This document shows, piece after piece, positions 11,312-23,631 of a DNA stretch of 64,000 nt. The DNA comes from an uncultured Bacteroidales bacterium. Its GTDB lineage: Bacteria; Bacteroidota; Bacteroidia; Bacteroidales; F082. Every line of letters begins with the position of its first letter. Within the stretch, counting starts at the first letter, position 1. The notes below the pieces were generated by a model, which was not told the origin of the DNA, did not search any database, and saw only the letters and a list, made by a program, of their open reading frames with translations. The stretch lies in the NCBI GenBank assembly GCA_905234455.1, contig CAJOIH010000007.1, positions 62,001-126,000 on the forward strand, read 5' to 3'. The translations under genes and the position numbers were made by a program.

Positions 11312-11341
11312 TTGACTTTTTCAAAAAGTTTTGTACCTTTG
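11312..11341 (+). promoter_or_regulatory. Strong promoter of the restriction-modification operon
   Basis: TTG (11312-11314), 19-nt spacer, TACCTTTG (11334-11341): a full match to the Bacteroidota vegetative promoter. Only 4 nt separate the -7 box from the first ATG at 11346, so the first gene is predicted to be leaderless or almost so. Confidence 0.8.
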
Positions 11342-11345
11342 CAGT

Positions 11346-11936
11346 ATGAAAAATTGTAGAAACGAAAATACTAAACCTAAAAAGATTCTTTCTGAAATAG
11401 CAGAAGTAGCTTCTGGTGTATACTTAAAGGCCGAACCTTACGGGGACGTCTCCTATTTACAGATAAAGGACCTACTCTCCGAATTGCCTGAGAAAACAGC
11501 TTCAAAAGTCACTCTTTCTCCAAAAAACGAACGTTATTTGTTGGCAAAAGGCGACCTGTTGTTTGCCGGGAAAGGGACAACCTACCTTTGCAAAGTGTTT
11601 GACCTCAACATTCCAGCCATCGCCTCCACCACCTTGTATATGATACGCCTAACCTCAAAAAGCATTCTTCCCGACTACCTTTGCTGGTATTTGAATCAAC
11701 CCAGCGTGATGGCGGTGATGAAAGCACAACAAGTTGGCACAGGTACGCCGCTTATTCGCAAGCAAGTCGTTGAAGATTTTGAAATCCCTATTCCAGATAT
11801 AGACACGCAACGTCAGATTGTGGAATTGGCAAAGCTTCAAACCAGAGAAAAAGAACTTTACCAAGCCCTTGCAGAAAAACACGAACAACTTACCAATCAA
11901 TTGATAATGAATAAAATAAACAGATATGGAAAATAA
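11346..11936 (+). CDS. Half-size type I specificity subunit (single TRD HsdS)
   Basis: 196 residues, about half the length of a normal HsdS. One target-recognition domain (about 15-150; SGVYLKAEPYGDVSYLQIKDL, LLAKGDLLFAGKGTTYL, SVMAVMKAQQVGTGTPLIRKQVVEDFEIPIPD) is followed by one coiled-coil helix (RQIVELAKLQTREKELYQALAEK). A single-TRD subunit would recognise DNA as a dimer or supply an alternative half-site. It overlaps hsdM by 11 nt. A full-length HsdS lies further down the same operon. The only plausible start is ATG 11346. The gene is AT-rich relative to hsdM. Confidence 0.85.
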   Translation: MKNCRNENTKPKKILSEIAEVASGVYLKAEPYGDVSYLQIKDLLSELPEKTASKVTLSPKNERYLLAKGDLLFAGKGTTYLCKVFDLNIPAIASTTLYMIRLTSKSILPDYLCWYLNQPSVMAVMKAQQVGTGTPLIRKQVVEDFEIPIPDIDTQRQIVELAKLQTREKELYQALAEKHEQLTNQLIMNKINRYGK

Positions 11937-13455
11937 AAAGATCACCCAAGACGACATCAACCGCACGGTTTGGAAGGCTTGCGACACGTTTCGCGGCGTC
12001 ATCGACCCGAGCCAGTACAAGGACTACATCCTTACCATGCTGTTTCTGAAATATGTGAGCGATGTCTATAAATCGAAGTTGAACGACTACCTTATTAAAT
12101 ACGAAGGCGACAAGGAACGCGCCGAGCGTGCCATGCGTCATGAACGCTTTGTGGTGCCAGAAAAAAGCTCGTTTGATTTCCTTTATGAACATCGCAACGC
12201 CACCAACATCGGCGAACTGATTGACGAGGCCTTGGCCGACCTCGAAGACGCCAACCGCGAGAAGATGAGCAGCGAGGACGGCAGCAGCATCTTCCGCAAT
12301 ATCAGCTTCAACAGCGCCAATCTGGGCGAGACGAAAGAAAAGAACGCCCGACTGAAAAACCTCTTGCAGGACTTCCAAGGTGTAGACCTGGACGAGTCGC
12401 ACTTGGAAAACAACGACATCATTGGCGATGCATATATGTACCTCGTTTCCACCTTTGCGGGTGAGGCGGGCAAGAAAGCTGGCGACTTCTTCACACCTGC
12501 CGAAGTGTCTACCCTACTCGCCAAGCTCACCAAGAGCAAACCTGGTGCGCGTATCTGTGATGTGACTTGTGGTTCCGGCTCTTTGTTGATTAAGGCAGGC
12601 AAGGAAGTGGGCAACAACAACTTCTCGCTATACGGGCAAGAGGTGAACGGCAGCACTTGGGCATTGGCCATGATGAACATGTTTCTGCACGGCTTCGACA
12701 ATGCTGTCATCCGTTGGGGCGACACGTTGCGCAACCCCAAGCTGAAGATGAACGACAAGCTGATGAAGTTCGACACGGTGGTGGCCAATCCGCCCTTCAG
12801 CCTTGACAAATGGGGCGCCGAGGAGGCCGCCAGCGACCCTTACAACCGTTTCTGGCGCGGCATTCCGCCAAAAAGCAAAGGCGACTGGGCCTTTATCAGC
12901 CATATGCTGGAGGTGGCCGACGACCAAAACGGCAAAGTGGGTGTCATCATCCCTCACGGCGTGCTGTTCCGCGGCGGCAGCGAAGGCAAGATCCGCCAAT
13001 ACATCCTTGAAAACGAGCACACTTTGGAAGCCGTCATCGGTTTGCCCGCCAATCTATTCTACGGCACAGGCATCCCCGCAGCCATCGCCATTTTCCGCAA
13101 AGGTCGTTGCTCTGAGAACGTGCTGTTCATCGATGCCAGCCGTGAGTACGAAAACGGCAAGAACCAAAACAAGCTCCGCCCGCAGGATATCGAGCACATC
13201 GTTGGCATCTACCGCAAATTTGCCAATGGCGAATTGCAGCCCGGCGTAGTGGAAGACAAATACGCATACGTGGCCACCCCCGACGAAATCCGCGAAAACG
13301 ACTTCAACCTCAACATCCCGCGCTATGTGGACACCTACGAAGAAGAAGCCGAAATCGACATCCCCGCCGTGCAGAAAGAGATTGAGCAGTTGGAAACGGA
13401 ACTGGCCGAAGTGCAGGGGAAAATGAAAGAGTATTTAAAGGAATTAGGATATTAA
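11926..13455 (+). CDS. hsdM: Type I restriction-modification DNA methyltransferase subunit
   Basis: 509-residue N6-adenine methyltransferase subunit. The N-terminal helical HsdM domain begins RTVWKACDTFRGVIDPSQYKDYILTMLFLKYVSD. SAM motif I is ICDVTCGSGSLLIKAG (about 208-223) and the catalytic motif IV is NPPF (288-291). The acidic C-terminal tail EIEQLETELAEVQGKMKEYLKELGY is a coiled coil for contact with HsdS. With HsdS it protects host DNA; with HsdR it forms the restriction complex. Base composition resembles the host chromosome, unlike the passenger genes that follow. Confidence 0.96.
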   Translation: MENKKITQDDINRTVWKACDTFRGVIDPSQYKDYILTMLFLKYVSDVYKSKLNDYLIKYEGDKERAERAMRHERFVVPEKSSFDFLYEHRNATNIGELIDEALADLEDANREKMSSEDGSSIFRNISFNSANLGETKEKNARLKNLLQDFQGVDLDESHLENNDIIGDAYMYLVSTFAGEAGKKAGDFFTPAEVSTLLAKLTKSKPGARICDVTCGSGSLLIKAGKEVGNNNFSLYGQEVNGSTWALAMMNMFLHGFDNAVIRWGDTLRNPKLKMNDKLMKFDTVVANPPFSLDKWGAEEAASDPYNRFWRGIPPKSKGDWAFISHMLEVADDQNGKVGVIIPHGVLFRGGSEGKIRQYILENEHTLEAVIGLPANLFYGTGIPAAIAIFRKGRCSENVLFIDASREYENGKNQNKLRPQDIEHIVGIYRKFANGELQPGVVEDKYAYVATPDEIRENDFNLNIPRYVDTYEEEAEIDIPAVQKEIEQLETELAEVQGKMKEYLKELGY

Positions 13456-13466
13456 AACATAAGATT

Positions 13467-14789
13467 ATGAATAAGATAGAGACATTATTCAAAGAATGGC
13501 AGGCTCTTCAACCGGTAAAGGAAGAGTATCAACAGAGACTGGACCAGAAATTCATGCTGGAGTTTAATTTCAACTCCAATCATATCGAGGGCAACACCCT
13601 TACATATGGCCAGACAGAAATGCTTCTTATGTTTGGCAAGGTCGTAGACGAGGCCAACATGAAAGACCTGGAAGAAATGAAAGCTTCCAACGTGGGATTG
13701 AAGATGGTAAAAGAAGCCGCTCTAGACAAGGGGCAACCCCTTACTGAGTATTTCATCCGCACCTTGCATAAGACATTACTTCGCGAAGATTACACTGTAT
13801 ATCGACAACTTCCAGAGGGAGCTACAACATCTTATGTCGTCCATGCAGGACAATACAAAACCCGGCCAAATTCTGTTATCACAGCCACCGGTGAGCGTTT
13901 CGAATATGCCACACCCGAAGAAACACCGGCATTGATGACAGACCTGATCCAGTGGTATAACCAAGCCGAAGCAGAAGGCACTATGACACCCATAGAATTG
14001 GCGTCGTTGTTTCATTATCGCTACATCAGAATCCATCCCTTCGAAGATGGAAACGGAAGAATCTCCCGACTAATGGTGAACTACATTCTGTATCGCAATG
14101 GTTATCCGATGATTGTGGTGAAAAGCAAGGACAAAAACAATTATCTTACTGCTCTTAACAAATGTGATGTTGTCGTTGGTCCTGTTCCATCTGATGGGGC
14201 CCATGCAGAGTTATTGCAGATCACGCCTTTTGTTGAATACACGAGCAAATGCTTAGTGAGGTCATTGGAAATCAGCATCAAAGGCGCAAAAGGAGAACGC
14301 ATTGACGACGATGATGATTGGAAGAAAAAATTCAAGACCAAGTATCGCGACAAAATAAACAAACCAGAAATCACTGATGAAGCCATCCAAAAAATCGTTG
14401 GGGAAGATTATTCTTCATTACTCCAACTAATTGACTCAGAGTTATCCGAATTCTATTCTGTTTTTACTTTTGTCAGTTGGGATCCCGAAAAAGCCAAATT
14501 CAGCCATTCCAACCAAGGAGATTATTATTCGAACATATACTTTTCTAAAGAGTTCGGAAACATCAATTCGGAATTTACAATCCAAATAGCATTAACCACT
14601 CAACAATTCCTGTACAAACTAAAAGTGTTCAAAATCAGAAATGGAATAGGTAGCATTATGCATAATAAAGAGTATTCATACGACGAGTTTATTTCAGAGC
14701 AAGACAAAATTGACATTGTCAACATCATTGGCAATTGTTTAACCAACTTTATTGAGACTAAGGGGGGTTATTTCCCCATCAATGGCTAA
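13467..14789 (+). CDS. Fic-domain protein (predicted AMP transferase) inside the RM operon
   Basis: 440 residues. The catalytic Fic motif HPFEDGNGRISR (190-201) is intact. Upstream, S37NHIEGN43 matches the inhibitory helix motif (S/T)xxxE(G/N), so autoinhibition is N-terminal (class II, inference). The C-terminal ~200 residues show no known domain to me. Fic enzymes usually AMPylate Ser/Thr/Tyr hydroxyls of target proteins. It lies 11 nt after hsdM and before the full-length hsdS. Such a position is seen in other Bacteroidota type I loci and suggests a guard or toxin role. The target is unknown. Confidence 0.92.
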   Translation: MNKIETLFKEWQALQPVKEEYQQRLDQKFMLEFNFNSNHIEGNTLTYGQTEMLLMFGKVVDEANMKDLEEMKASNVGLKMVKEAALDKGQPLTEYFIRTLHKTLLREDYTVYRQLPEGATTSYVVHAGQYKTRPNSVITATGERFEYATPEETPALMTDLIQWYNQAEAEGTMTPIELASLFHYRYIRIHPFEDGNGRISRLMVNYILYRNGYPMIVVKSKDKNNYLTALNKCDVVVGPVPSDGAHAELLQITPFVEYTSKCLVRSLEISIKGAKGERIDDDDDWKKKFKTKYRDKINKPEITDEAIQKIVGEDYSSLLQLIDSELSEFYSVFTFVSWDPEKAKFSHSNQGDYYSNIYFSKEFGNINSEFTIQIALTTQQFLYKLKVFKIRNGIGSIMHNKEYSYDEFISEQDKIDIVNIIGNCLTNFIETKGGYFPING

Positions 14790-14888: not shown

Positions 14889-16088
14889 ATGAACAAACAA
14901 GCCCAACATATCCCCACCGGCTACAAATCCTCTCCCCTCGGCCCCATTCCCGAAGATTGGGAACTGAAGAGGCTGGGAGATTTCTCCAATTTCTTCAGTG
15001 GCGGTACTCCAAAATCAGGCAATACCTTGTATTATAATGGAACAATTCCGTTCATTCGTTCGGGAGAAATAAACAGAGATAGAACAGAACTGTTTTTATC
15101 ACAAGAAGGCATTGATAATTCATCTGCAAAATTCGTAGAAATAGGAGATATTCTTTATGCATTATATGGTGCAAATAGCGGACAATGCTCTTTGTCAAAG
15201 ATAAATGGTGTCATTAACCAAGCAATTCTATGTATAAGACCTAAAGCTGTTAGATACTATATAATGACCTTTCTTCAACTTAATAAAGACCATTATTACA
15301 ACTCATATTTACAAGGAGGACAAGGTAATCTTTCAGGAGAGATTGTTTCTAATTATAAGATTGCCATCCCTCCCATAAAAGAACAAGAAAGAATCTGCGC
15401 AGTTCTTCAGCTTTGGGACACCGCCATAGAGAAGCAGACCGCCCTGATAGAGCAACTCACCCTGCGCAAGCGCGGCCTCATGCAGCAACTGCTTACGGGG
15501 AAGAAGCGGTTGAAAGGGTTTAGCGGGGAATGGAAACGGATAAAGGCTGAAGAAATCTTCAAAAGCATTTCTGTAAAAGGGAATGGTTCAGAAGTATTGT
15601 TATCCGCCACGCAAGAACATGGTGTAATTCCACGTGACCAATTAGAAGGCAGGGTTACTATGCCGACAGGCGATACTAATTCATTCAAACTTGTTGAAGT
15701 AGGAGACTTCGTTATAAGCCTTCGCTCTTTCCAAGGGGGACTTGAATATTCTGAACATAGAGGCATCGTAAGTCCTGCATATACGGTGCTCAAACCCATT
15801 GTTGAGATTGACAAGCCCTTTTATCGTTATTATTTCAAAAGTGCGGAATTAATTGGACATTTGGCAATTGCAGTAATTGGTATTAGAGACGGTAAACAAA
15901 TCAGTTACGAGGATTTCTGTTTCGTCAAAATACCATATCCAAACATAGAAGAACAAAAAGCCATTTCAGCAGTCTTGTTACAATCCGACAAAGAAATCGA
16001 GATACAAAAACAAAAACTGACAGCCATGCAGGCGCAGAAAAAGGGGCTGATGCAGGTGCTGTTAACAGGGAAAAGGAGGATAAAATGA
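14889..16088 (+). CDS. hsdS: Type I restriction specificity subunit, full length with two TRDs
   Basis: 399 residues in the classic HsdS layout. TRD1 (about 15-175; GDFSNFFSGGTPKSGNTLYYNGTIPFIRSGEI) is followed by a conserved helix ending RKRGLMQQLLTGKKR. TRD2 (about 210-365) is followed by the second helix ending QKKGLMQVLLTGKRR at the C-terminus. The two helix ends are an internal repeat, as expected for HsdS circular pseudo-symmetry. It recognises a bipartite DNA site and holds two HsdM. It ends in an ATGA overlap with the AbiTii gene. The ~100 nt upstream (14790-14888) hold no recognisable element. Confidence 0.95.
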   Translation: MNKQAQHIPTGYKSSPLGPIPEDWELKRLGDFSNFFSGGTPKSGNTLYYNGTIPFIRSGEINRDRTELFLSQEGIDNSSAKFVEIGDILYALYGANSGQCSLSKINGVINQAILCIRPKAVRYYIMTFLQLNKDHYYNSYLQGGQGNLSGEIVSNYKIAIPPIKEQERICAVLQLWDTAIEKQTALIEQLTLRKRGLMQQLLTGKKRLKGFSGEWKRIKAEEIFKSISVKGNGSEVLLSATQEHGVIPRDQLEGRVTMPTGDTNSFKLVEVGDFVISLRSFQGGLEYSEHRGIVSPAYTVLKPIVEIDKPFYRYYFKSAELIGHLAIAVIGIRDGKQISYEDFCFVKIPYPNIEEQKAISAVLLQSDKEIEIQKQKLTAMQAQKKGLMQVLLTGKRRIK

Positions 16089-17017
16089 TTGACTTAAAGA
16101 AACAAATCGAAAGCATTATTGAAGATTTAGTTAATAACGCTTCTATATCCAGTGTTCTACTAAAGGCACAAACAATAGCCTTTTATTTAAAAGACGAATC
16201 TTTTACAAACTGGATAAAATCAGAACAAAATGGTTATTCGAACATTAATGAAATACCCGAATACCGCAAACTCAAATGTGCTATAAAAGTAGATGTATCC
16301 ATCCCATTCAGAGGAATCATGTATGGTGTGGATTTCCCAATAGATGCTATTGAAAATGAAATCATTAGAGACGATTTGTCGCATATTTGTTTCTGCGACT
16401 CTATTTCCATAATTGAACAGATGGGGAATGACCAGAAAAACGATATGCTTAAGATGACTGCTTCTGCTTATACGTACAGTATTATAAACAAATCTTTCCC
16501 CAACGGGAACATTGAGGGTGTCCATAAAATAACCAATACATCATCTGCCATAGCAATAATTGACATTGTTAAATCAAAACTCCTTGACTTTTTTCTAAAA
16601 ATAGAAGAACAGATAGACTTAAATGTAAACTTCGATGTTATGGCAAACAAAGAGAAAATACAAACAATTATGAATCAAACCATTAAAGCCGGTGTAGTTA
16701 ATACTGGTAATGGCAACATCTCAATAAATCAAAGCGAGATAATTGGCGGAAATGAGAATGTATCCATATCCTCAACAAACAAAGAAGAATTGAAAAACAT
16801 CCTAAACAGAATCGAAGAAATCAATAAGAAATACAACAACAAAGATATAGTTTATGAAATTTCTGAAATAAGAAGCGACTTGGAAAAACCGAGCCAAAAT
16901 CCTCGAATTATTAAAAGAGCTTTCAATGCAATGAAAGGAATTGCGTTGGGAATCATGGCAAATGAGTTATCACCCTTAATTGACAAAGGCATAGAACTGC
17001 TTTCTAATTTGTTCTGA
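16085..17017 (+). CDS. AbiTii-domain protein, candidate abortive-infection sensor
   Basis: 310 residues, AT-rich. The N-terminal ~190 residues fit the AbiTii domain, with LLKAQTIAFYLKDESFTNWI, EQNGYSN and IPEYRKL (the LxxAxxLAxxLxxxxxxxWixxELxGYxxxxxxPxYR pattern). A central VNTGNGNISI..SEIIGGNENVSIS beta segment (about 213-235) and a charged helical region (250-285) follow. The C-terminus is a hydrophobic or amphipathic helix (GIALGIMANELSPLIDKGIELLSNLF region). It starts in the hsdS stop (ATGA), so it is made with the RM system. It is followed 2 nt later by a membrane-protein gene. AbiTii is an abortive-infection-associated domain; the mechanism of this protein is unknown. Confidence 0.72.
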   Translation: MIDLKKQIESIIEDLVNNASISSVLLKAQTIAFYLKDESFTNWIKSEQNGYSNINEIPEYRKLKCAIKVDVSIPFRGIMYGVDFPIDAIENEIIRDDLSHICFCDSISIIEQMGNDQKNDMLKMTASAYTYSIINKSFPNGNIEGVHKITNTSSAIAIIDIVKSKLLDFFLKIEEQIDLNVNFDVMANKEKIQTIMNQTIKAGVVNTGNGNISINQSEIIGGNENVSISSTNKEELKNILNRIEEINKKYNNKDIVYEISEIRSDLEKPSQNPRIIKRAFNAMKGIALGIMANELSPLIDKGIELLSNLF

Positions 17018-17019
17018 TA

Positions 17020-17925
17020 TTGGATTTTAAGAATTTTATATTAGACTTCTTCACACCAAGAGAATGGGCTACCATAACTCTTGTAGGCGCATTTATTTTG
17101 TTCTCAGCAATAAACAAAAGTGTCAGAAACAGCATTTTTGGCGTTATTAATGCTTTTTTTCATTGGAAAATCATCGTTCCAATTATTTGTGCACAATTAT
17201 ATCTGTCCTTATTCTATTACACTCTTTACAGGTTTAACATTTGGAATAATAACATCTTCCGAGAGGTTTTATTCTTTTCTCTATTTACAAGCATATCTCT
17301 TATTTTCAAATATGCGAGCAACAACGACCGCATTTCATCATTAAAAGGAATCATAGAAGATACTGTCACAGCCTCGATCATTATCGAATTCTATCTTCAG
17401 ATTTACACCTTTTCTTATCCCATTGAATTGCTAATACAATTCCTATTAGCATTTTTCTATTTAATGGGGGTCTATAACAAAAGAGAAACAAAGGATTATG
17501 AAAGAACTTATTTTGTTACTCAATTTATTTTTTATTCCCTAACACTCTTTTTGTTTGTTTATAGCATATATATGGCAATAATACACTGGGATAACAGCTT
17601 TTCAAGCCAAACCGTGGCTTCCTTACTATTTCCCATCATAACCACAATTGTCTATTGGCCATTCCTTTATGTATTTGCAACAATTTGCGCCTATGAAACC
17701 TGGTTTGTACGCATATTCTTTGCATCTAAAAAAGACAAAGATGTTTATAGATTTAGAAAAAACCAAGTAATAAAAACCTGCAAGTTGAACCTAAGCAAAA
17801 TCAACTTCATTCGCAAAGACTTTCATGTTTTCATTCCGCAAACACAGGAAGAGTTCATTCGTGATCTACAAATTTCCGAAGACAGATATAATAACCAACA
17901 CATAAAAAAAGAGTCGCCACCTTGA
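17020..17925 (+). CDS. Polytopic membrane protein paired with AbiTii gene
   Basis: 301 residues starting at TTG 17020, two bases after the AbiTii stop. About seven hydrophobic helices are visible (near 15-32, 48-68, 80-96, 112-130, 134-150, 168-190, 200-228). A basic cytosolic tail with KDKDVYRFRKNQVIKTCKLNL follows. I do not recognise a family. Its coupling to the AbiTii gene suggests a sensor plus membrane-effector pair (inference). The last residues (KKESPP) and the TGA stop are encoded by the start of repeat copy A, so the original C-terminus may have been altered. Strongly AT-rich compared with hsdM and hsdR. Confidence 0.75.
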   Translation: MDFKNFILDFFTPREWATITLVGAFILFSAINKSVRNSIFGVINAFFHWKIIVPIICAQLYLSLFYYTLYRFNIWNNNIFREVLFFSLFTSISLIFKYASNNDRISSLKGIIEDTVTASIIIEFYLQIYTFSYPIELLIQFLLAFFYLMGVYNKRETKDYERTYFVTQFIFYSLTLFLFVYSIYMAIIHWDNSFSSQTVASLLFPIITTIVYWPFLYVFATICAYETWFVRIFFASKKDKDVYRFRKNQVIKTCKLNLSKINFIRKDFHVFIPQTQEEFIRDLQISEDRYNNQHIKKESPP

Positions 17926-17990
17926 CAACCCTTTTCCAACCGGGGACTCCCCAAGCCAATAGAGTTTAATACCGATGCAAAAACACAAAG
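17902..17990 (-). repeat. ~90-bp dispersed repeat, copy A
   Basis: Aligned with copy B (19629-19718), the first 59 bp show 8 mismatches and the whole about 80% identity. Shared parts are an A7 tract with GAGTCGCC, TGACAACCCTTT, CCGGGGAC, CCCCAA and TGCAAA. Read on the minus strand it contains a short GGGG...CCCC hairpin and then a GUUGU/GCGAC stem followed by U7, resembling a terminator. The minus-strand -7 box is degenerate here (TGTTTTTG). It overlaps the end of the membrane-protein gene. Confidence 0.8.
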
Positions 17991-18003: not shown

Positions 18004-18714
18004 ATGACAACAAAACCCGAACTACAATATCTCAACATTGATTTTAAATACACTTTCAGCTCTCCTCTTGGGCCTATGGAAGGCGAACGATACATCCAAG
18101 ACATTGCTGTCGAAATAATCAAAACCGATGAATATGGGAACAACCCTATTATCATTGGGAAAGGCAACGTGAAGATTTTACTACTGGCACAAGCCATAAA
18201 CGACCATTACGACATCTTTGAGATCTTCGACACCGAATCATATACCATGCGCATTGGCAATATGATCTATGATTTCGACAATTATGAAATCAAGGAAGAT
18301 TTGCAAAAAAAGTTGTTTGGTGACGACATTATGATCAATCCAAACATCTGCATTTTCGAACGAATGATGATTCTCCCAGAATACAGGGGATTAGGAATTG
18401 GTGCCAAATTTGTCAAAGACAGATTTCATTATTTCAATACCGCTTGCGGTCTCATCGTCATGCAGCCATTTCCCCTCCAACTCGAGCCATCAAATACTTT
18501 GGGAAGGGACAATGAGTTTGAAAGCAAAATGGGGTATGAAGAGATGGAACATGATTCGAGAAAAGCCATGAAAAGCTTAAAAGACTATTACAAAAGAATC
18601 GGATATATCACCGTTAGAGGATATAAAGACCTAATGTTTCTTATCCCCGATTTCAAAAACGACAAACTTGATGCTATCGATTTAGAAGAATCGATAATTA
18701 ATCCAAAACCATAA
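18004..18714 (+). CDS. GNAT-fold acetyltransferase, cargo of the RM island
   Basis: 236 residues. The acetyl-CoA binding motif A is MMILPEYRGLGIGAKF (R-x-x-G-x-G/A near residue 128), preceded by the NICIFERM beta strand. MQPFPLQLEP follows in the position of beta5. The first ~100 residues do not match a known domain to me. The acceptor is unknown; GNAT enzymes can modify proteins, tRNA or small molecules. It lies between repeat copy A and a gene remnant. Lower G+C than the core RM genes. No promoter is obvious in the 78-nt gap before it apart from the repeat. Confidence 0.8.
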   Translation: MTTKPELQYLNIDFKYTFSSPLGPMEGERYIQDIAVEIIKTDEYGNNPIIIGKGNVKILLLAQAINDHYDIFEIFDTESYTMRIGNMIYDFDNYEIKEDLQKKLFGDDIMINPNICIFERMMILPEYRGLGIGAKFVKDRFHYFNTACGLIVMQPFPLQLEPSNTLGRDNEFESKMGYEEMEHDSRKAMKSLKDYYKRIGYITVRGYKDLMFLIPDFKNDKLDAIDLEESIINPKP

Positions 18715-18867: not shown

Positions 18868-19632
18868 ATGGTCCTTCCAGTAAATATACACACCAACAAA
18901 TACTACCTGTTTTTAGACGAATGCGGAGACCAGAACTTGTCGAATTTCGACCCGTCTTTCCCCATTTTCACCCTATGCGGGGTCATTATGTCCCAATCCC
19001 AATTAGATTGGGTTTCAAATGAAATTAACGCTTTGAAAAAAGATTATTGGGGCGACAAGAAAATCATACTGCATTCAAGAGACATACGCAAATGCCAAAA
19101 TGGTTTCGAGATACTGTTCGACTTAGAAGTCAAGCAGAGCTTCTACAATAGGGTCAACAGTATTTTGAAAGAAAAAATGTATGTCATCGTATGCTGCTCC
19201 ATTCTGAAAGAGCCCTATATCCGCCAATACGGACGCCTTAATGACGTGTATGGACTGTCTCTATCTTACATTATGGAAAGAACCGTGTTCTACTTGGATA
19301 GTTTGACGAAAGACAACATTCATCTTACAACAATAGTTGAAAGCAGAGGAAAAAAAGAAGATCGGACGCTGTTGGATTATTATAATAAAGTCTGCGACCG
19401 AGGAACTTACTGGGTAACATCCGAAAGAATAAAAAACTATTTCAAGGATTTTGAACTGAAAAAGAAATCCGACGACCTCATAGGATTACAAGTAGCAGAC
19501 CTAATTGCATATCCGATTACAAGATATGTATTAGACGAGCAAGCCGTAAACTTAGCTTATGACATCATCAAAGACAATATTTATCAAAAAGAAGGAAAAC
19601 TGTATGGCATGAAAGTGTTCCCAAACAAATAA
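18868..19632 (+). CDS. DUF3800 protein (predicted RNase H-like fold)
   Basis: 254 residues. DUF3800 marks are FLDECGD (15-21; usually DESGD), FTLCGVIM, LHSRDIRK (about 70-77), a central VESRGKKED and the C-terminal GLQVADLIAYPI. The acidic residues suggest a metal-dependent nuclease-like site, but no activity is established for the family. The first residues MVLPVNIHT are unusual for DUF3800 proteins, which normally begin close to YYLFLDE. They copy the MxLPVNI start of the preceding remnant. It ends at repeat copy B. Confidence 0.82.
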   Translation: MVLPVNIHTNKYYLFLDECGDQNLSNFDPSFPIFTLCGVIMSQSQLDWVSNEINALKKDYWGDKKIILHSRDIRKCQNGFEILFDLEVKQSFYNRVNSILKEKMYVIVCCSILKEPYIRQYGRLNDVYGLSLSYIMERTVFYLDSLTKDNIHLTTIVESRGKKEDRTLLDYYNKVCDRGTYWVTSERIKNYFKDFELKKKSDDLIGLQVADLIAYPITRYVLDEQAVNLAYDIIKDNIYQKEGKLYGMKVFPNK

Positions 19633-19718
19633 AAAAAGAGTCGCCGCAATGACAACCCTTTCCCGACCGGGGACACCCCAATCCAAGAATCTTTCGATTC
19701 CGCTGCAAAGATACAAAC
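19629..19718 (-). repeat. ~90-bp dispersed repeat, copy B, possible small RNA
   Basis: Second copy of the repeat at 17902-17990. On the minus strand it has a full promoter: TTG (19737-19735), 21-nt spacer, TATCTTTG (19713-19706). About 70 nt follow with a GGGG-UGU-CCCC hairpin and a GUUGU/GCGAC stem, then the U7 tract at 19637-19631. This is the architecture of a short independently transcribed RNA ending just behind the DUF3800 gene. Whether it is transcribed is unknown. Confidence 0.7.
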
Positions 19719-19737: not shown

Positions 19738-19783
19738 GAGTTATCATCACTTTTTTATATAGAAATCCTATAACGCTTTGATT

Positions 19784-22700
19784 ATGAGCCTCATCTCCTT
19801 CAAAGAAAACGATATCAGCCAAATCCCGGCGTTGGAGCTTCTGCAAAAGCTAGGCTACCAATACCTCTCGCCAGAAGAGGCCTTGGAAATGCGTGGCGGC
19901 AAGACCTCCAACGTGCTGTTGGAAGACGTTTTGCGTCGACAACTGCGTGCGCTGAACTCCATCCGCATCGGCAGCCACAGCGAGGCGCGCTTCTCGGAAC
20001 AGAACATCGAGAACGGTGTCATCGCCATGCGCAACGTGACCATGGAAGGCGGCTACCTCAGCGGCAACGAGGCGGTGTATAACATGCTCACCCTCGGCAA
20101 GGCCTTTGAGCAAAGCATCGATGGCGACAAAAAGAGCTACACCATGCGCTACATCGACTGGCAACACCCCGAGAACAATGTCTTTCATGTCACCGAAGAG
20201 TTTGCCGTCAACCGCACCGGCTCCACCGACACCTACCGTCCCGACATCGTGCTCTTCGTGAACGGCATCCCGCTGGTCATCATCGAATGCAAGCGGCCCG
20301 ACATCAAAGGTGCTGAGGAGCAAGCCATCTCTCAACACCTGCGCAACCAAAAGGACGACGGCATCCGCAGCCTCTATGTCTATAGCGCCTTGCTGTTGGC
20401 CATCGGCAACAGTTTCGGCAGTTATGCCACCACAGGCTCGGCATCCCAGTTCTGGAGCAAATGGCATGAGTTGTTCCTAAACAAAGACGAGGAAATAGAC
20501 TACCACAAGCAACTGTTTGAATCGGTAAACGAAGGATTTGACGAAGTTCGCACCCCTACCCTACAAGACGAATACATATACAACCTCTGCCGCCCCGAAC
20601 GGTTGCTGGAGCTGATGTTCCACTTCACCATTTTCGACGCAGGCATCAAGAAACTGGCACGCTACCAACAATACTTCACCGTGAAAGAGATCGTTGAGCG
20701 CGTGAAGACCATCGAGGCAGGTCGTCGCAACGGCGGCGTGGTGTGGCACACCCAGGGCAGCGGCAAGTCGCTGACCATGGTGATGCTAGCACAAAAGATA
20801 GCGCAAGAACCGAGCATCCGCAACCCATGCATCGTCTTGGTCACCGACCGCACCGACTTGGACAACCAAATCACCAAGACCTTCCGCAAATGCGGCAAGC
20901 AGGTGGAGAATGCCACCACAGGAAAACGGCTTGTGGAACTTTTGGAAAGCGACACTGATGCGGTCATCACCACCGTCATCAACAAATTCGCCACAGCCAT
21001 TAAAAAGATCAAGCAGCCCCTCACCGACCCTAATGTTTTCATTCTCATCGACGAAGCCCACCGAAGCCAATACAAGGAACTGGCCATACAGATGAATCGC
21101 GTGTTGCCCAAGGCCTGCAAGATTGCCTTCACTGGTACGCCTTTGATGAAGAAAGACAAAAACACCGCCTTGACCTTCGGCGGCATCATCAAACCAGTTT
21201 ATACCGTCAAACAAGCCGTCGATGACAAGGCCGTGGTGCCGCTGCTCTACGAAGGCAGACTATCACCCCAAACGGTGAGCGAAAGCCCCATCGACAACTT
21301 CTTCAGCCAAGCATGTGAAGACCTCACCTATGAGCAGTCCACCGACCTAAAAAAGAAGTTCTCGCGCACCGACATCCTCAACCAAACCGAACAACGCATC
21401 TATTCCATTGCCTCCGATATCTCCGACCATTACTTGAAAAACTGGCAAGGCACAGGCTTCAAAGCCATGCTGGTGACACCCGTCAAGCGCGTGGCCATCC
21501 TATACAAAAAGTATTTGGACGAGATTGGAAAAGTGTCGTCGGAAGTGCTCATCACAGCCCCCGACGACCGTGAGGGAGAAGAAATCGCCTACGGCGGCAC
21601 ACCACAAGAGGTAAAGGCTTTTTGGAAGCAGATGATGGACGAACACGGAACGCCAGCCAAATACCAAGAAAACCTCATCTCACGGTTTAAAAACCACAAG
21701 TTGCCCGAGATAATGATTGTGGTTGATAAGTTGCTCACCGGCTTCGACGAACCCAAAGTGGCCATCATGTACCTCGACCGTAACCTCAAAGGTCACACCC
21801 TGCTGCAAGCCGTTGCCCGTGTCAACCGCACCTGCGAAGGAAAAGACTTTGGTTACATCATCGACTATTACGGTGTTTTGAGGGAATTGGACGATGCCCT
21901 CAGCATCTACTCCGAATACGATGAAGATGACCGGCAAGTGTTCCGCGAAACCCTAGTCCCTGTTTCCGACAAAATCGCCGAGCTGCCCCAGCGTCATTCC
22001 GACCTATGGGAACTGTTCAAGACCATCCCCAACAAACGCGACTTGGAAGCCTATGCCCAGTCGTTGCGCATGGAAGACCGCCGTCATGAGTTTTACGACC
22101 GACTCACCGCCTATTCTTCGGTGTTGCAATTGGCTTTATCCACCATGGAATTCCATGAGAATACCGATGAAAAAACCATACGACGCTATAAAGACGACCT
22201 GAACATGTTCGCCAAGTTGCGCACCGCCGTCCAGCTCCGCTACTCCGACGCGGTCGATTACAAGAAATACGAAGCACGCATCGAGAAGCTCATCAACCAC
22301 CATGTAGAGAGCGATGCCGTGAAGGTCATTACCAACCTAGTCAACATTTTCGACAAGGAGGATTTCAAGAAAGAAGTGGACAGCATCGTAGGAACGGCCG
22401 CCAAAGCCGACACCATCGCAACACGCACTTCAAAATACATCCGCGAAAACATGGACTCCGACCCTGCGTTCTACAAGAAATTCTCCCAACTCATCAAAGA
22501 AGCCATCGAGTTGTACGAGCAAGGCCGCTTGACCGACAATGAGTATCTGGAAAAGATGATGCAGTATAAGGAAGACGTGCTCAACCATACCGACAGCGAG
22601 TTGCCTTCGGAGTTGGAACACAACAATGCTGCAAAAGCCTATTTCGGCATCGCCTTGGAGAACTACAAACGACTCTTCCCCGACATGCCTGTACGCGAAA

Positions 22701-22936
22701 TGGCATTGGCAACCACCCATGCCTTCGACGAGATCATCCGTCAGTCGGTGATTGTGGACGGTTCCGTCTTGGTGGACTGGCAATCGAAAAGCGATATCAT
22801 CGGGAAGATGAAAATCCGCCTCGAAGACGAACTAATCGACAATATCAAACGCAAATACGAATTGAACTTTGCCTTCGATGACATGGACATCATCATTGAC
22901 GGCTGCGTGGACGTGGCAAAAATATGGATCCGATGA
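19784..22936 (+). CDS. hsdR: Type I restriction endonuclease/translocase subunit
   Basis: 1050 residues from ATG 19784 (an in-frame TTG lies 6 nt upstream). The N-terminal nuclease has PD(153-154)...IIECK (E168, K170), the PD-ExK core. The superfamily 2 motor has Walker A QGSGKS (G325-S329), DEAH (423-426), FTGTPL and the later LLTGFDEP and QAVARVNR motifs. The long C-terminal helical part contacts the MTase. It cleaves unmethylated DNA after ATP-driven translocation. Here it is separated from hsdS by five genes or remnants, instead of adjoining it. Confidence 0.97.
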   Translation: MSLISFKENDISQIPALELLQKLGYQYLSPEEALEMRGGKTSNVLLEDVLRRQLRALNSIRIGSHSEARFSEQNIENGVIAMRNVTMEGGYLSGNEAVYNMLTLGKAFEQSIDGDKKSYTMRYIDWQHPENNVFHVTEEFAVNRTGSTDTYRPDIVLFVNGIPLVIIECKRPDIKGAEEQAISQHLRNQKDDGIRSLYVYSALLLAIGNSFGSYATTGSASQFWSKWHELFLNKDEEIDYHKQLFESVNEGFDEVRTPTLQDEYIYNLCRPERLLELMFHFTIFDAGIKKLARYQQYFTVKEIVERVKTIEAGRRNGGVVWHTQGSGKSLTMVMLAQKIAQEPSIRNPCIVLVTDRTDLDNQITKTFRKCGKQVENATTGKRLVELLESDTDAVITTVINKFATAIKKIKQPLTDPNVFILIDEAHRSQYKELAIQMNRVLPKACKIAFTGTPLMKKDKNTALTFGGIIKPVYTVKQAVDDKAVVPLLYEGRLSPQTVSESPIDNFFSQACEDLTYEQSTDLKKKFSRTDILNQTEQRIYSIASDISDHYLKNWQGTGFKAMLVTPVKRVAILYKKYLDEIGKVSSEVLITAPDDREGEEIAYGGTPQEVKAFWKQMMDEHGTPAKYQENLISRFKNHKLPEIMIVVDKLLTGFDEPKVAIMYLDRNLKGHTLLQAVARVNRTCEGKDFGYIIDYYGVLRELDDALSIYSEYDEDDRQVFRETLVPVSDKIAELPQRHSDLWELFKTIPNKRDLEAYAQSLRMEDRRHEFYDRLTAYSSVLQLALSTMEFHENTDEKTIRRYKDDLNMFAKLRTAVQLRYSDAVDYKKYEARIEKLINHHVESDAVKVITNLVNIFDKEDFKKEVDSIVGTAAKADTIATRTSKYIRENMDSDPAFYKKFSQLIKEAIELYEQGRLTDNEYLEKMMQYKEDVLNHTDSELPSELEHNNAAKAYFGIALENYKRLFPDMPVREMALATTHAFDEIIRQSVIVDGSVLVDWQSKSDIIGKMKIRLEDELIDNIKRKYELNFAFDDMDIIIDGCVDVAKIWIR

Positions 22937-23631
22937 ACAGAGACAGCATCCAATACGGCACGACGCTTATCGAATATGAAATCACATACGCGCCAAGAAA
23001 AACGCTAGGCATCAGCGTGCATCCCGACAGCACAGTCACTTTGAAAGCCCCACTTGAAGCCACAACCGAAGACATCCGGGAAAAGGTACGCCGTAGGGCA
23101 GCATGGATACTTCGACAGAAGCGATATTTTGATTCGTTTGGCATCCCAACCACCAAAAGGCAATACATCAGCGGCGAATCGCATCTCTATTTGGGCCGCC
23201 AATACATGCTCAGAGTCAAAGAAAGTTCACAGAATGCCGTCCGTTATCATAGCAACATTCTCGAAGTGGAGTGCCATGACAGAAACAAGGCAGAAAAAGT
23301 ACTTAAGCTTTGGTATCTGGAACGGGCGCAAATAAAGTTTCCCGAATACGCCCAGCCTATCATAGACCAGTTTGTTGTTTACGGAGTAAAACCTAACAGC
23401 CTTTCCATTCGAAAAATGGAAAATCGCTGGGGTTACTGCACTAATGACGGTGACATTTATCTAAACCCCAGACTAATATGCGCTCCAAGATGCTGCATTG
23501 AATATGTCATCACCCACGAAATGTGCCATTTGATCCATCGCAACCACACCCAAGAATTCTACACCCTGCTCAGTAAGGAAATGCCCCATTGGGAAAAATG
23601 GAAGACAAAGTTGGAACGAATGCTCATTTAA
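22933..23631 (+). CDS. YgjP-like (DUF45/M48-type) zinc metallopeptidase, RM-associated
   Basis: 232 residues from ATG 22933, which overlaps the hsdR stop as ATGA (an in-frame ATG at 22924 is the alternative). The zincin motif HEMCHLIHRNH is near residue 195. RKMENRWGYC and the WILRQKRYF segment match the YgjP/DUF45 family. Members commonly sit directly after hsdR; a role in processing or controlling the restriction complex is suspected from that linkage only. Its last four bases overlap the convergent mtnN gene. Confidence 0.88.
   Translation: MNRDSIQYGTTLIEYEITYAPRKTLGISVHPDSTVTLKAPLEATTEDIREKVRRRAAWILRQKRYFDSFGIPTTKRQYISGESHLYLGRQYMLRVKESSQNAVRYHSNILEVECHDRNKAEKVLKLWYLERAQIKFPEYAQPIIDQFVVYGVKPNSLSIRKMENRWGYCTNDGDIYLNPRLICAPRCCIEYVITHEMCHLIHRNHTQEFYTLLSKEMPHWEKWKTKLERMLI

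Follow-up and report, generated by a model that had tools for sequence, protein, structure and literature searches.

A Type I restriction operon whose variable cargo slot holds an AbiTii-domain gene and the gene of an unnamed membrane protein, probably as separate accessory defence units

The window, meaning the whole 64,000-nt stretch of DNA that was analysed, contains a Type I restriction-modification (RM) operon in which two accessory genes follow directly on hsdS. The upstream one encodes an AbiTii-domain protein (AbiTii) and the downstream one a membrane protein from a family without a name (here called MEM); both are RM-embedded, that is, located between hsd genes and on the same strand. 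The features of the locus are:

11331..11936, + strand: half-length HsdS with one Methylase_S domain, 5' of hsdM (PF01420, E 8.5e-11)
11926..13455, + strand: hsdM, Type I methyltransferase (PF02384, E 3.9e-98)
13467..14789, + strand: Fic-domain gene between hsdM and hsdS (PF02661, E 9.7e-20)
14889..16088, + strand: hsdS, specificity subunit (PF01420, E 3.3e-31)
16085..17017, + strand: AbiTii-domain protein, 310 aa (PF18864, E 7.2e-33; PADLOC AbiTii, E 1.8e-36)
17020..17925, + strand: MEM, 301-aa membrane protein of a family without a name, TTG start
17897..17959, + strand: 63-nt repeat, copy 1, coding for the final MEM residues (87% identity to copy 2)
18004..18714, + strand: GNAT-like gene, additional slot cargo (PF13508, E 3.8e-4, 21.2 bits, below the cut-off of 27)
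18868..19632, + strand: DUF3800 gene, additional slot cargo (PF12686, E 2.2e-19)
19624..19686, + strand: 63-nt repeat, copy 2, at the 3' end of the DUF3800 gene
19778..22936, + strand: hsdR, Type I restriction subunit (HSDR_N, E 7.6e-39; SWI2_SNF2, E 3e-77)
22924..23631, + strand: YgjP-like metallopeptidase gene, 3' border of the locus (PF01863, E 5.5e-54)

The hsdS gene ends in ...ATAAAATGA at position 16088 and the ATG of AbiTii (16085-16087) overlaps its stop codon (ATGA), while the TGA of AbiTii (17015-17017) is followed, after a gap of 2 nt, by the TTG start of MEM at 17020. Both genes are far more AT-rich than the restriction genes (32.7% GC for AbiTii and 32.3% for MEM, versus 53.1% for hsdM and 52.0% for hsdR), and on the two junctions as well as on base composition the initial annotation had described the locus correctly. 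Its assignment of the AbiTii domain is likewise borne out by Pfam and PADLOC, with PF18864 scoring 114.8 bits over residues 8-194 against a curated cut-off of 27.6. The proposed hydrophobic C-terminal helix of this protein does not hold up: when its 19-residue segments are ranked by hydrophobicity, none of the top six falls in that helix, five beginning at residues 152-156 (with 1.46 as the best mean) and the sixth at residue 15. None of the protein's matches in Pfam or PADLOC is a HEPN family, and neither neighbour of the AbiTii gene carries an AbiTi label, a statement about PADLOC labels alone, whether or not these include an AbiTi model. Searches of phage records and of viral contigs gave no AbiTii relatives.

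The interval between hsdS and hsdR was compared at nine loci where it is readable, namely the window, L097, L099, L100, L101, L102, L103, L104 and L112. These loci were selected and are not a random sample: they derive from the eight best HsdR matches, among which L098 lacks a readable slot because of a contig end, and from the AbiTii search, which contributed L112. The interval ranges from 823 to 4214 nt, and its content at the other eight loci, all congeneric with the window, is:

L097: TIR_2, TIR/SLOG, ThsB-TIR and DUF3800 genes
L099: HAD gene
L100: 258-aa gene, GNAT-like gene and DUF3800 gene
L101: 239-aa gene with hydrophobic segments and Schlafen AlbA_2 gene
L102: 570-aa gene and 235-aa gene with hydrophobic segments
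L103: 571-aa gene
L104: 268-aa gene with hydrophobic segments
L112: 264-aa gene and AbiTii gene

The gene sets differ in all nine loci, with single genes sometimes common to two, such as the 570-571-aa gene of L102 and L103 (74% identity) and the 258-264-aa gene of L100 and L112 (62%). The GNAT-like gene of the window has a relative with 95% identity in the L100 slot, and its DUF3800 gene is 94-95% identical to the copies in L097 and L100. The cargo of the eight other loci is AT-rich as well (29-42% GC), and several slot genes had no Pfam match in a search that covered the slot genes apart from the 571-aa gene of L103 and the 264-aa gene of L112. HsdM identity to the window is 92.5-97.6% in the six loci with an alignment, and HsdR identity is 93-96% in L097-L101, 84% in L102-L103 and 58% in L104. 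The YgjP-like gene is conserved 3' of hsdR in L097-L104 and L112, and half-length hsdS homologues occupy the equivalent position at six loci (L097, L100, L101, L102, L103 and L112). The hsdM-hsdS interval is also variable, with the Fic gene retained in L101 and other genes present in L097, L099, L100, L102, L103 and L112. By this comparison, the stretch from hsdS to hsdR is a cargo slot of variable, partly defence-like content. Its HAD, DUF3800 and GNAT-like genes are not clearly defence genes.

The 63-nt repeat was considered as a general border of mobile cassettes and rejected in this role. With up to three mismatches allowed, a limit that more divergent variants would escape, the pattern occurs at only two places in the window genome and in 3 of the 99 genomes of the genus (one copy each in G997 and G998). 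It is tied to the 3' end of the DUF3800 gene, where it is also found in L097 and L100, and the copy behind MEM is therefore treated as local.

MEM represents a real protein family that has no name in Pfam, NCBIfam or PADLOC, in line with the initial annotation, which had recognised no named family in it. Nothing exceeded the Pfam cut-off (the best match, DUF6526, reaches 16.6 bits versus 23.7), and no match was obtained in NCBIfam at E 1 or in PADLOC at E 0.01. The seven helices it had been credited with reappear as seven long helices in an AlphaFold2 model (residues 13-31, 49-71, 77-100, 108-128, 133-155, 158-188 and 196-235; mean pLDDT 83.7, pTM 0.71), and structure comparison gave no relative or effector match that would back an effector function. 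The family is marked by an RE pair near the N-terminus, an F and an E in the middle helices and the seven long helices, all of which fit the window protein; R14, E15, F124 and E136 are invariant across 29 aligned rows. It comprises 45 distinct loci including the window, counted after removal of G625 and G791 (partial matches only), a second Arcobacter record and duplicate contigs (L061 = G875, L065 = G438, L071 = G363). Two loci come from Firmicutes and nine members have a C-terminal extension. In a tree of 40 of the 45 loci (L052, L059, L074, L078 and L080 omitted), the window sits on a long branch (2.35) of uncertain position. Distribution is patchy, with MEM in 2 of 344 genomes of the order, 11 of 395 of the class and 9 of 296 of the phylum, the window genome being counted each time. 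Within the genus, 7 of 99 genomes match the profile, six of them weakly (E 8e-6 to 2.5e-4), and the count is limited to the window; the one weak match that was inspected (L113, in G1064) is a 468-aa many-helix gene amid ribosomal-protein-like genes, which, judging from its position, is probably SecY. No MEM relatives were found in the phage and viral collections searched, nor was the DNA of a Salmonella plasmid relative found in the E. coli genomes searched.

A direct 5' partner, defined as a same-strand gene overlapping MEM or separated from it by at most 30 nt, is present at 18 of the 45 loci. These partners are Type IIG RM genes, 154-aa HEPN-like genes and 234-aa HExxH genes (four loci each), AbiTii, RecJ, a methyladenine glycosylase and a Cas4-like/DUF2779 gene (one locus each) and two genes without a name; at L053, the HExxH gene in front of MEM itself overlaps a Type IIG gene. 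One member (L023/L071) is fused to DUF4238, a domain for which single-protein protection against T7 has been demonstrated (PMC9122126). RecJ and methyladenine glycosylase are ordinary repair enzymes, and because these two are among the partners and 27 of the 45 loci have no same-strand gene within 30 nt upstream, the genomic context suggests a defence role of MEM but does so non-uniformly. The MEM proteins of L053, L054 and L055 are 88-90% identical to one another, the L054 and L055 Type IIG proteins align locally, at best, over 74 residues at 24% identity, and DNA homology around MEM in these two loci is a single block of 1,031 nt. Judged from these alignments, MEM travels as a cassette, with closely similar copies behind unrelated Type IIG genes. 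It may, as a tentative extension, be the membrane effector of an undescribed defence family that swaps partners: a cassette of about 1 kb, placed behind RM enzymes, HEPN-like RNases, metallopeptidases or AbiTii or fused to DUF4238, whose product would disturb the inner membrane on a signal from the partner once the latter detects infection or the loss of restriction.

AbiTii and MEM usually occur separately. A MEM profile (A4) that recovered 14 of 14 withheld family members found MEM at 0 of the 13 other AbiTii loci, two of which (L033 and L131) end near the AbiTii gene. Conversely, no AbiTii was recognised near the 44 other MEM genes, some with short flanks, by a local five-row profile that recovers the near controls (window and L112) and misses the distant control L036. 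Because this profile could miss distant AbiTii genes, 41 MEM genomes (three plasmid records excluded) were surveyed with PF18864, and AbiTii was detected in one, on a different contig. In the congener G1031, the hsdS-hsdR slot holds AbiTii without MEM. The initial annotation had named rare adjacency in other genomes as an argument against its two-gene module, and rare adjacency is what these surveys found. Its reading survives in the AbiTii identity, the RM-embedded site, the unnamed membrane protein and the defence-like company, and not in the single module; as a conserved arrangement, an obligate AbiTii-MEM module is rejected.

We favour, with a probability of about 0.7, the reading that the cargo slot of this Type I RM operon holds AbiTii and MEM as separate accessory defence units; most likely, they were acquired separately and are expressed with hsdS. 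Expression would proceed by read-through and translational coupling, and the two genes would add a second layer of defence beside restriction, AbiTii as a soluble protein that interferes with the phage or senses infection and MEM as a growth-stopping part in the inner membrane. MEM probably works with whichever nucleic-acid enzyme or sensor precedes it, or alone, and dependence on AbiTii may therefore hold here or not; that the two proteins functionally depend on each other is rather doubtful. One dependent abortive-infection module of soluble sensor and membrane effector would have to be a recent or rare pairing and seems fairly unlikely. The close spacing and the similar GC content, below that of the rest of the operon, speak for it, as do two precedents, the two-gene abiTi/abiTii system of L. 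lactis (PMC3985639) and tgvAB, a Type I-embedded pair of which both genes are required (PMC11411939), but the two genes are mostly found apart, including in G1031, and close spacing to varied partners is a habit of MEM.

It is also unlikely that the operon acts as a guardian in the manner of PrrC, HsdRMS holding one or both proteins inactive until phage inhibition of restriction releases growth arrest. The operon context matches published cases: PrrC, which inhibition of the RM enzyme activates, is encoded within a Type IC locus (PMC12707154). Of the 14 AbiTii loci examined, 3 (window, L112 and L035) have AbiTii within or adjacent to Type I genes, and MEM directly follows a Type IIG gene at 4 of 45 loci. 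At most of the AbiTii and MEM loci examined, however, comparison with the window Hsd and Type IIG references, which dissimilar RM genes could escape, marked no adjoining RM gene, and silencing by a linked RM enzyme is therefore not general. Of similarly low probability is a non-defence role of MEM as a general membrane protein, such as a transporter or a protein related to stress or repair, spreading as a hitch-hiker in the form of a small mobile cassette: many copies lack a close partner, partners include the two repair enzymes and structure comparison gave no effector match, whereas the patchy spread, the recurrent position behind RM, HEPN-like and metallopeptidase-like genes and the DUF4238 fusion argue against it. 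Truncation of a 440-aa protein by the 63-nt repeat, suggested by relatives of about 440 aa and by the repeat coding for the final MEM residues, is highly improbable and was rejected, largely refuted by the family lengths: 28 of the 44 other members have 280-300 aa, and the short form is therefore the commoner one. The analysis defines an unnamed membrane protein family, a small cassette that moves between restriction genes and genes of possible RNases; should MEM turn out to be an effector, a single protein would connect several defence genes that are otherwise unrelated.

Embedded defence is reportedly the subject of a paper by Payne and colleagues, cited in PMC11411939 and PMC12111858. Among known systems, the single-protein DUF4238 defence (PMC9122126) is related through the one fused MEM member, in contrast to the window MEM, which has no DUF4238 domain, and Lactococcus AbiT (AbiTi/AbiTii; PMC3710099, PMC3985639) has the AbiTii domain in common with the window protein. 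The anticodon nucleases PrrC and RloC (PMC12707154, PMC2610378) are likewise accessory genes, located within or close to a Type I locus, that provide a second layer, and the role which the initial annotation proposed for the pair, backup on restriction failure, is a published mode of PrrC and PARIS (reviewed in PMC12707154); AbiTii and MEM differ from them in having no PADLOC match to PrrC at E 0.01 and no identified nuclease domain. TgvAB, with a demonstrated defence role in a Vibrio Type I operon, resembles the window in its two embedded genes but is a GmrSD-like type IV enzyme and a true pair, and the passages of PMC11411939 consulted show no link to AbiTii or MEM. The rlo and mlo genes of Campylobacter Type I loci likewise intervene between hsd genes, in the hsdR-hsdS interval, where the rlo genes are located, and in the hsdS-hsdM interval; they belong to another host and are likened by position, not by sequence (PMC5183652). 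Beside these, the slot described here adds another gene set to the defence-like cargo known within Type I operons.

The window belongs to a contig of 188.6 kb in a draft genome (2.02 Mb, 82.8% complete), and the genes of its Type I restriction-modification (RM) locus are arranged as follows:

11331-11936, half-length hsdS, first in the gene order, 5′ of hsdM
11926-13455, hsdM
13467-14789, Fic, in the hsdM-hsdS interval
14889-16088, hsdS
16085-17017, AbiTii
17020-17925, MEM, a 301-aa membrane protein
18004-18714, GNAT-like
18868-19632, DUF3800
19778-22936, hsdR
22924-23631, YgjP-like

The initial annotation described the junctions and composition of this locus correctly: the start codon (ATG) of AbiTii overlaps the stop codon of hsdS, 2 nt separate the AbiTii stop from the MEM start, and GC content is low in both genes (about 32% vs 52-53% in hsdM and hsdR). 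AbiTii is likewise confirmed by a PF18864 match (E 7.2e-33), and MEM is indeed without a named family, giving no Pfam match over the cut-off and no NCBIfam or PADLOC match. Its AlphaFold2 model (29 aligned rows, mean pLDDT 83.7) shows the seven long helices that had been proposed, plus C-terminal helices. Hydropathy gives no support to the hydrophobic C-terminal helix of AbiTii that had been suggested to contact MEM; PMC3710099 describes the AbiTii domain as alpha+beta and conserved, with a glutamate that is also conserved, and records fusions to HEPN domains among its relatives. The half-length hsdS has the same position in six congeneric loci (identity 54-81% in five; the copy in L112, the AbiTii locus of genome G1031, was recognized by phmmer) and is therefore probably not a decayed fragment. 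A 63-nt repeat is found at the 3′ ends of the MEM gene (17897-17959) and the DUF3800 gene (19624-19686); the second copy is common to two congeners, and the first, which codes for the last MEM residues, was found only in the window genome.

A search for HsdR in 60 congeneric genomes gave some match in 49, and the eight best loci were compared with the window, together with L112 as a ninth, found via AbiTii; L098 runs to a contig border, leaving eight readable loci. All eight share the frame hsdS...hsdR...YgjP and differ in what lies between hsdS and hsdR: TIR and SLOG proteins with DUF3800, a HAD protein, a Schlafen AlbA_2 protein, hydrophobic-segment proteins, unnamed proteins or AbiTii. Some slot genes are shared, namely a 570-571-aa gene in L102/L103, a 258-264-aa gene in L100/L112, and the GNAT-like and DUF3800 genes in the window and L100. 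The AT-rich pair is therefore cargo at a type of site already known. A second variable slot lies between hsdM and hsdS, holding Fic in the window and L101 and membrane and other genes elsewhere, one type of which is, by resemblance, presumably DinD-like. At DNA level the hsdS genes resemble that of the window mainly in N-terminal, central and C-terminal blocks, as expected if target-recognition parts are exchanged.

Judged by sequence, MEM forms a protein family. A single-sequence search found it in 2/344 order genomes, a four-row profile in 11/395 class genomes (G625 being a partial match) and a twelve-row profile in 9/296 phylum genomes (G791 partial), the window genome included each time. 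In 84,980 species genomes a scan found 29 loci, of which 23 have Bacteroidota titles, two are from Firmicutes (L079, and L080 in Fictibacillus) and one each from Zetaproteobacteria, Deltaproteobacteria, Bdellovibrionales and Eremiobacterota; plasmid records of Salmonella, Arcobacter and a haloarchaeon also carry MEM. The total is 45 loci, without duplicates and the two partial matches. Length is 280-300 aa in 28 of the 44 other members; nine are extended at the C-terminus (L002, L003, L004, L030, L052, L068, L071, L072, L073), one of them by fusion to DUF4238 (PF14022, E 1.1e-27), and in L078 the extra length is N-terminal.

At 18 of the 45 loci a same-strand gene overlaps MEM or ends at most 30 nt 5′ of it; the remaining 27 lack one or meet a contig end. 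These partners are Type IIG RM genes at four loci (by PADLOC at L028, E 1.9e-192, L029/L065, E 1e-285, and L055, E 0; by phmmer to the L029 gene at L054), 234-aa genes with HExxH at four, and 154-aa genes in which an R-x(4-6)-H motif, taken to be of the HEPN kind, is conserved, at four. AbiTii, RecJ, a methyladenine glycosylase and a DUF2779/Cas4-like gene occur once each, and two partners (L023/L071, L073) have no clear family. In the Flavobacteriia loci L056, L057, L058 and L059 the 154-aa gene (no Pfam match in L056) lies 3 nt 5′ of MEM as a conserved pair, with MEM split into two frames in L059; as a true two-gene module, this pair is a stronger candidate than that of the window.

MEM is, as sequence comparison indicates, mobile as a cassette. 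The L053, L054 and L055 copies share 88-90% identity; the Type IIG proteins of L054 and L055 align locally over 74 residues at best (24%), and the DNA around MEM in these two shares a single homologous block (L054 6982-8011, 87%). In L053 MEM is separated from the Type IIG gene by an HExxH gene, and in a tree of 40 members RecJ-, Type IIG- and HExxH-linked copies fall within one supported group (95/92). Interspersed between genes around these three Bacteroidota cassettes are repeats about 80-280 nt long that contain inverted repeats and have GTTRGGC-like ends (e.g. L054 1862-2136, 3201-3320 and 9263-9370; L055 1634-1750 and 8010-8298); presumably attC-like by motif, they are possible sites of cassette recombination. 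AbiTii, by its distribution, is mobile on its own as well, occurring in 5/295 order, 2/99 genus and 8/247 phylum genomes (window genome in each count). A MEM profile that detects 14/14 family members held out of it finds MEM at 0 of 13 other AbiTii loci, and AbiTii is present in 1 of 41 MEM genomes, on a different contig. G1031, of the same genus and with the same RM frame, has AbiTii without MEM, 2 nt 5′ of hsdR.

The pair was observed correctly, and its interpretation is right in part only: the locus is an ordinary example of a known and interesting type, and what is new is the MEM family and the exchange of its partners. From their position and gene overlaps, AbiTii and MEM would be expressed together with hsdS. 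As a first guess MEM may be a membrane effector, given that it is a seven-helix protein with conserved charged residues (R14, E15 and E136) and tends to be encoded behind other enzymes. Like the window pair, the rlo genes (PMC5183652) and tgvAB (PMC11411939) are sited within Type I operons, different ones from this. Two ways in which such cargo can act are illustrated by PrrC, a Type IC locus gene triggered upon inhibition of the enzyme (as outlined in PMC12707154), and by TgvAB, which supplies a second restriction activity (PMC11411939).
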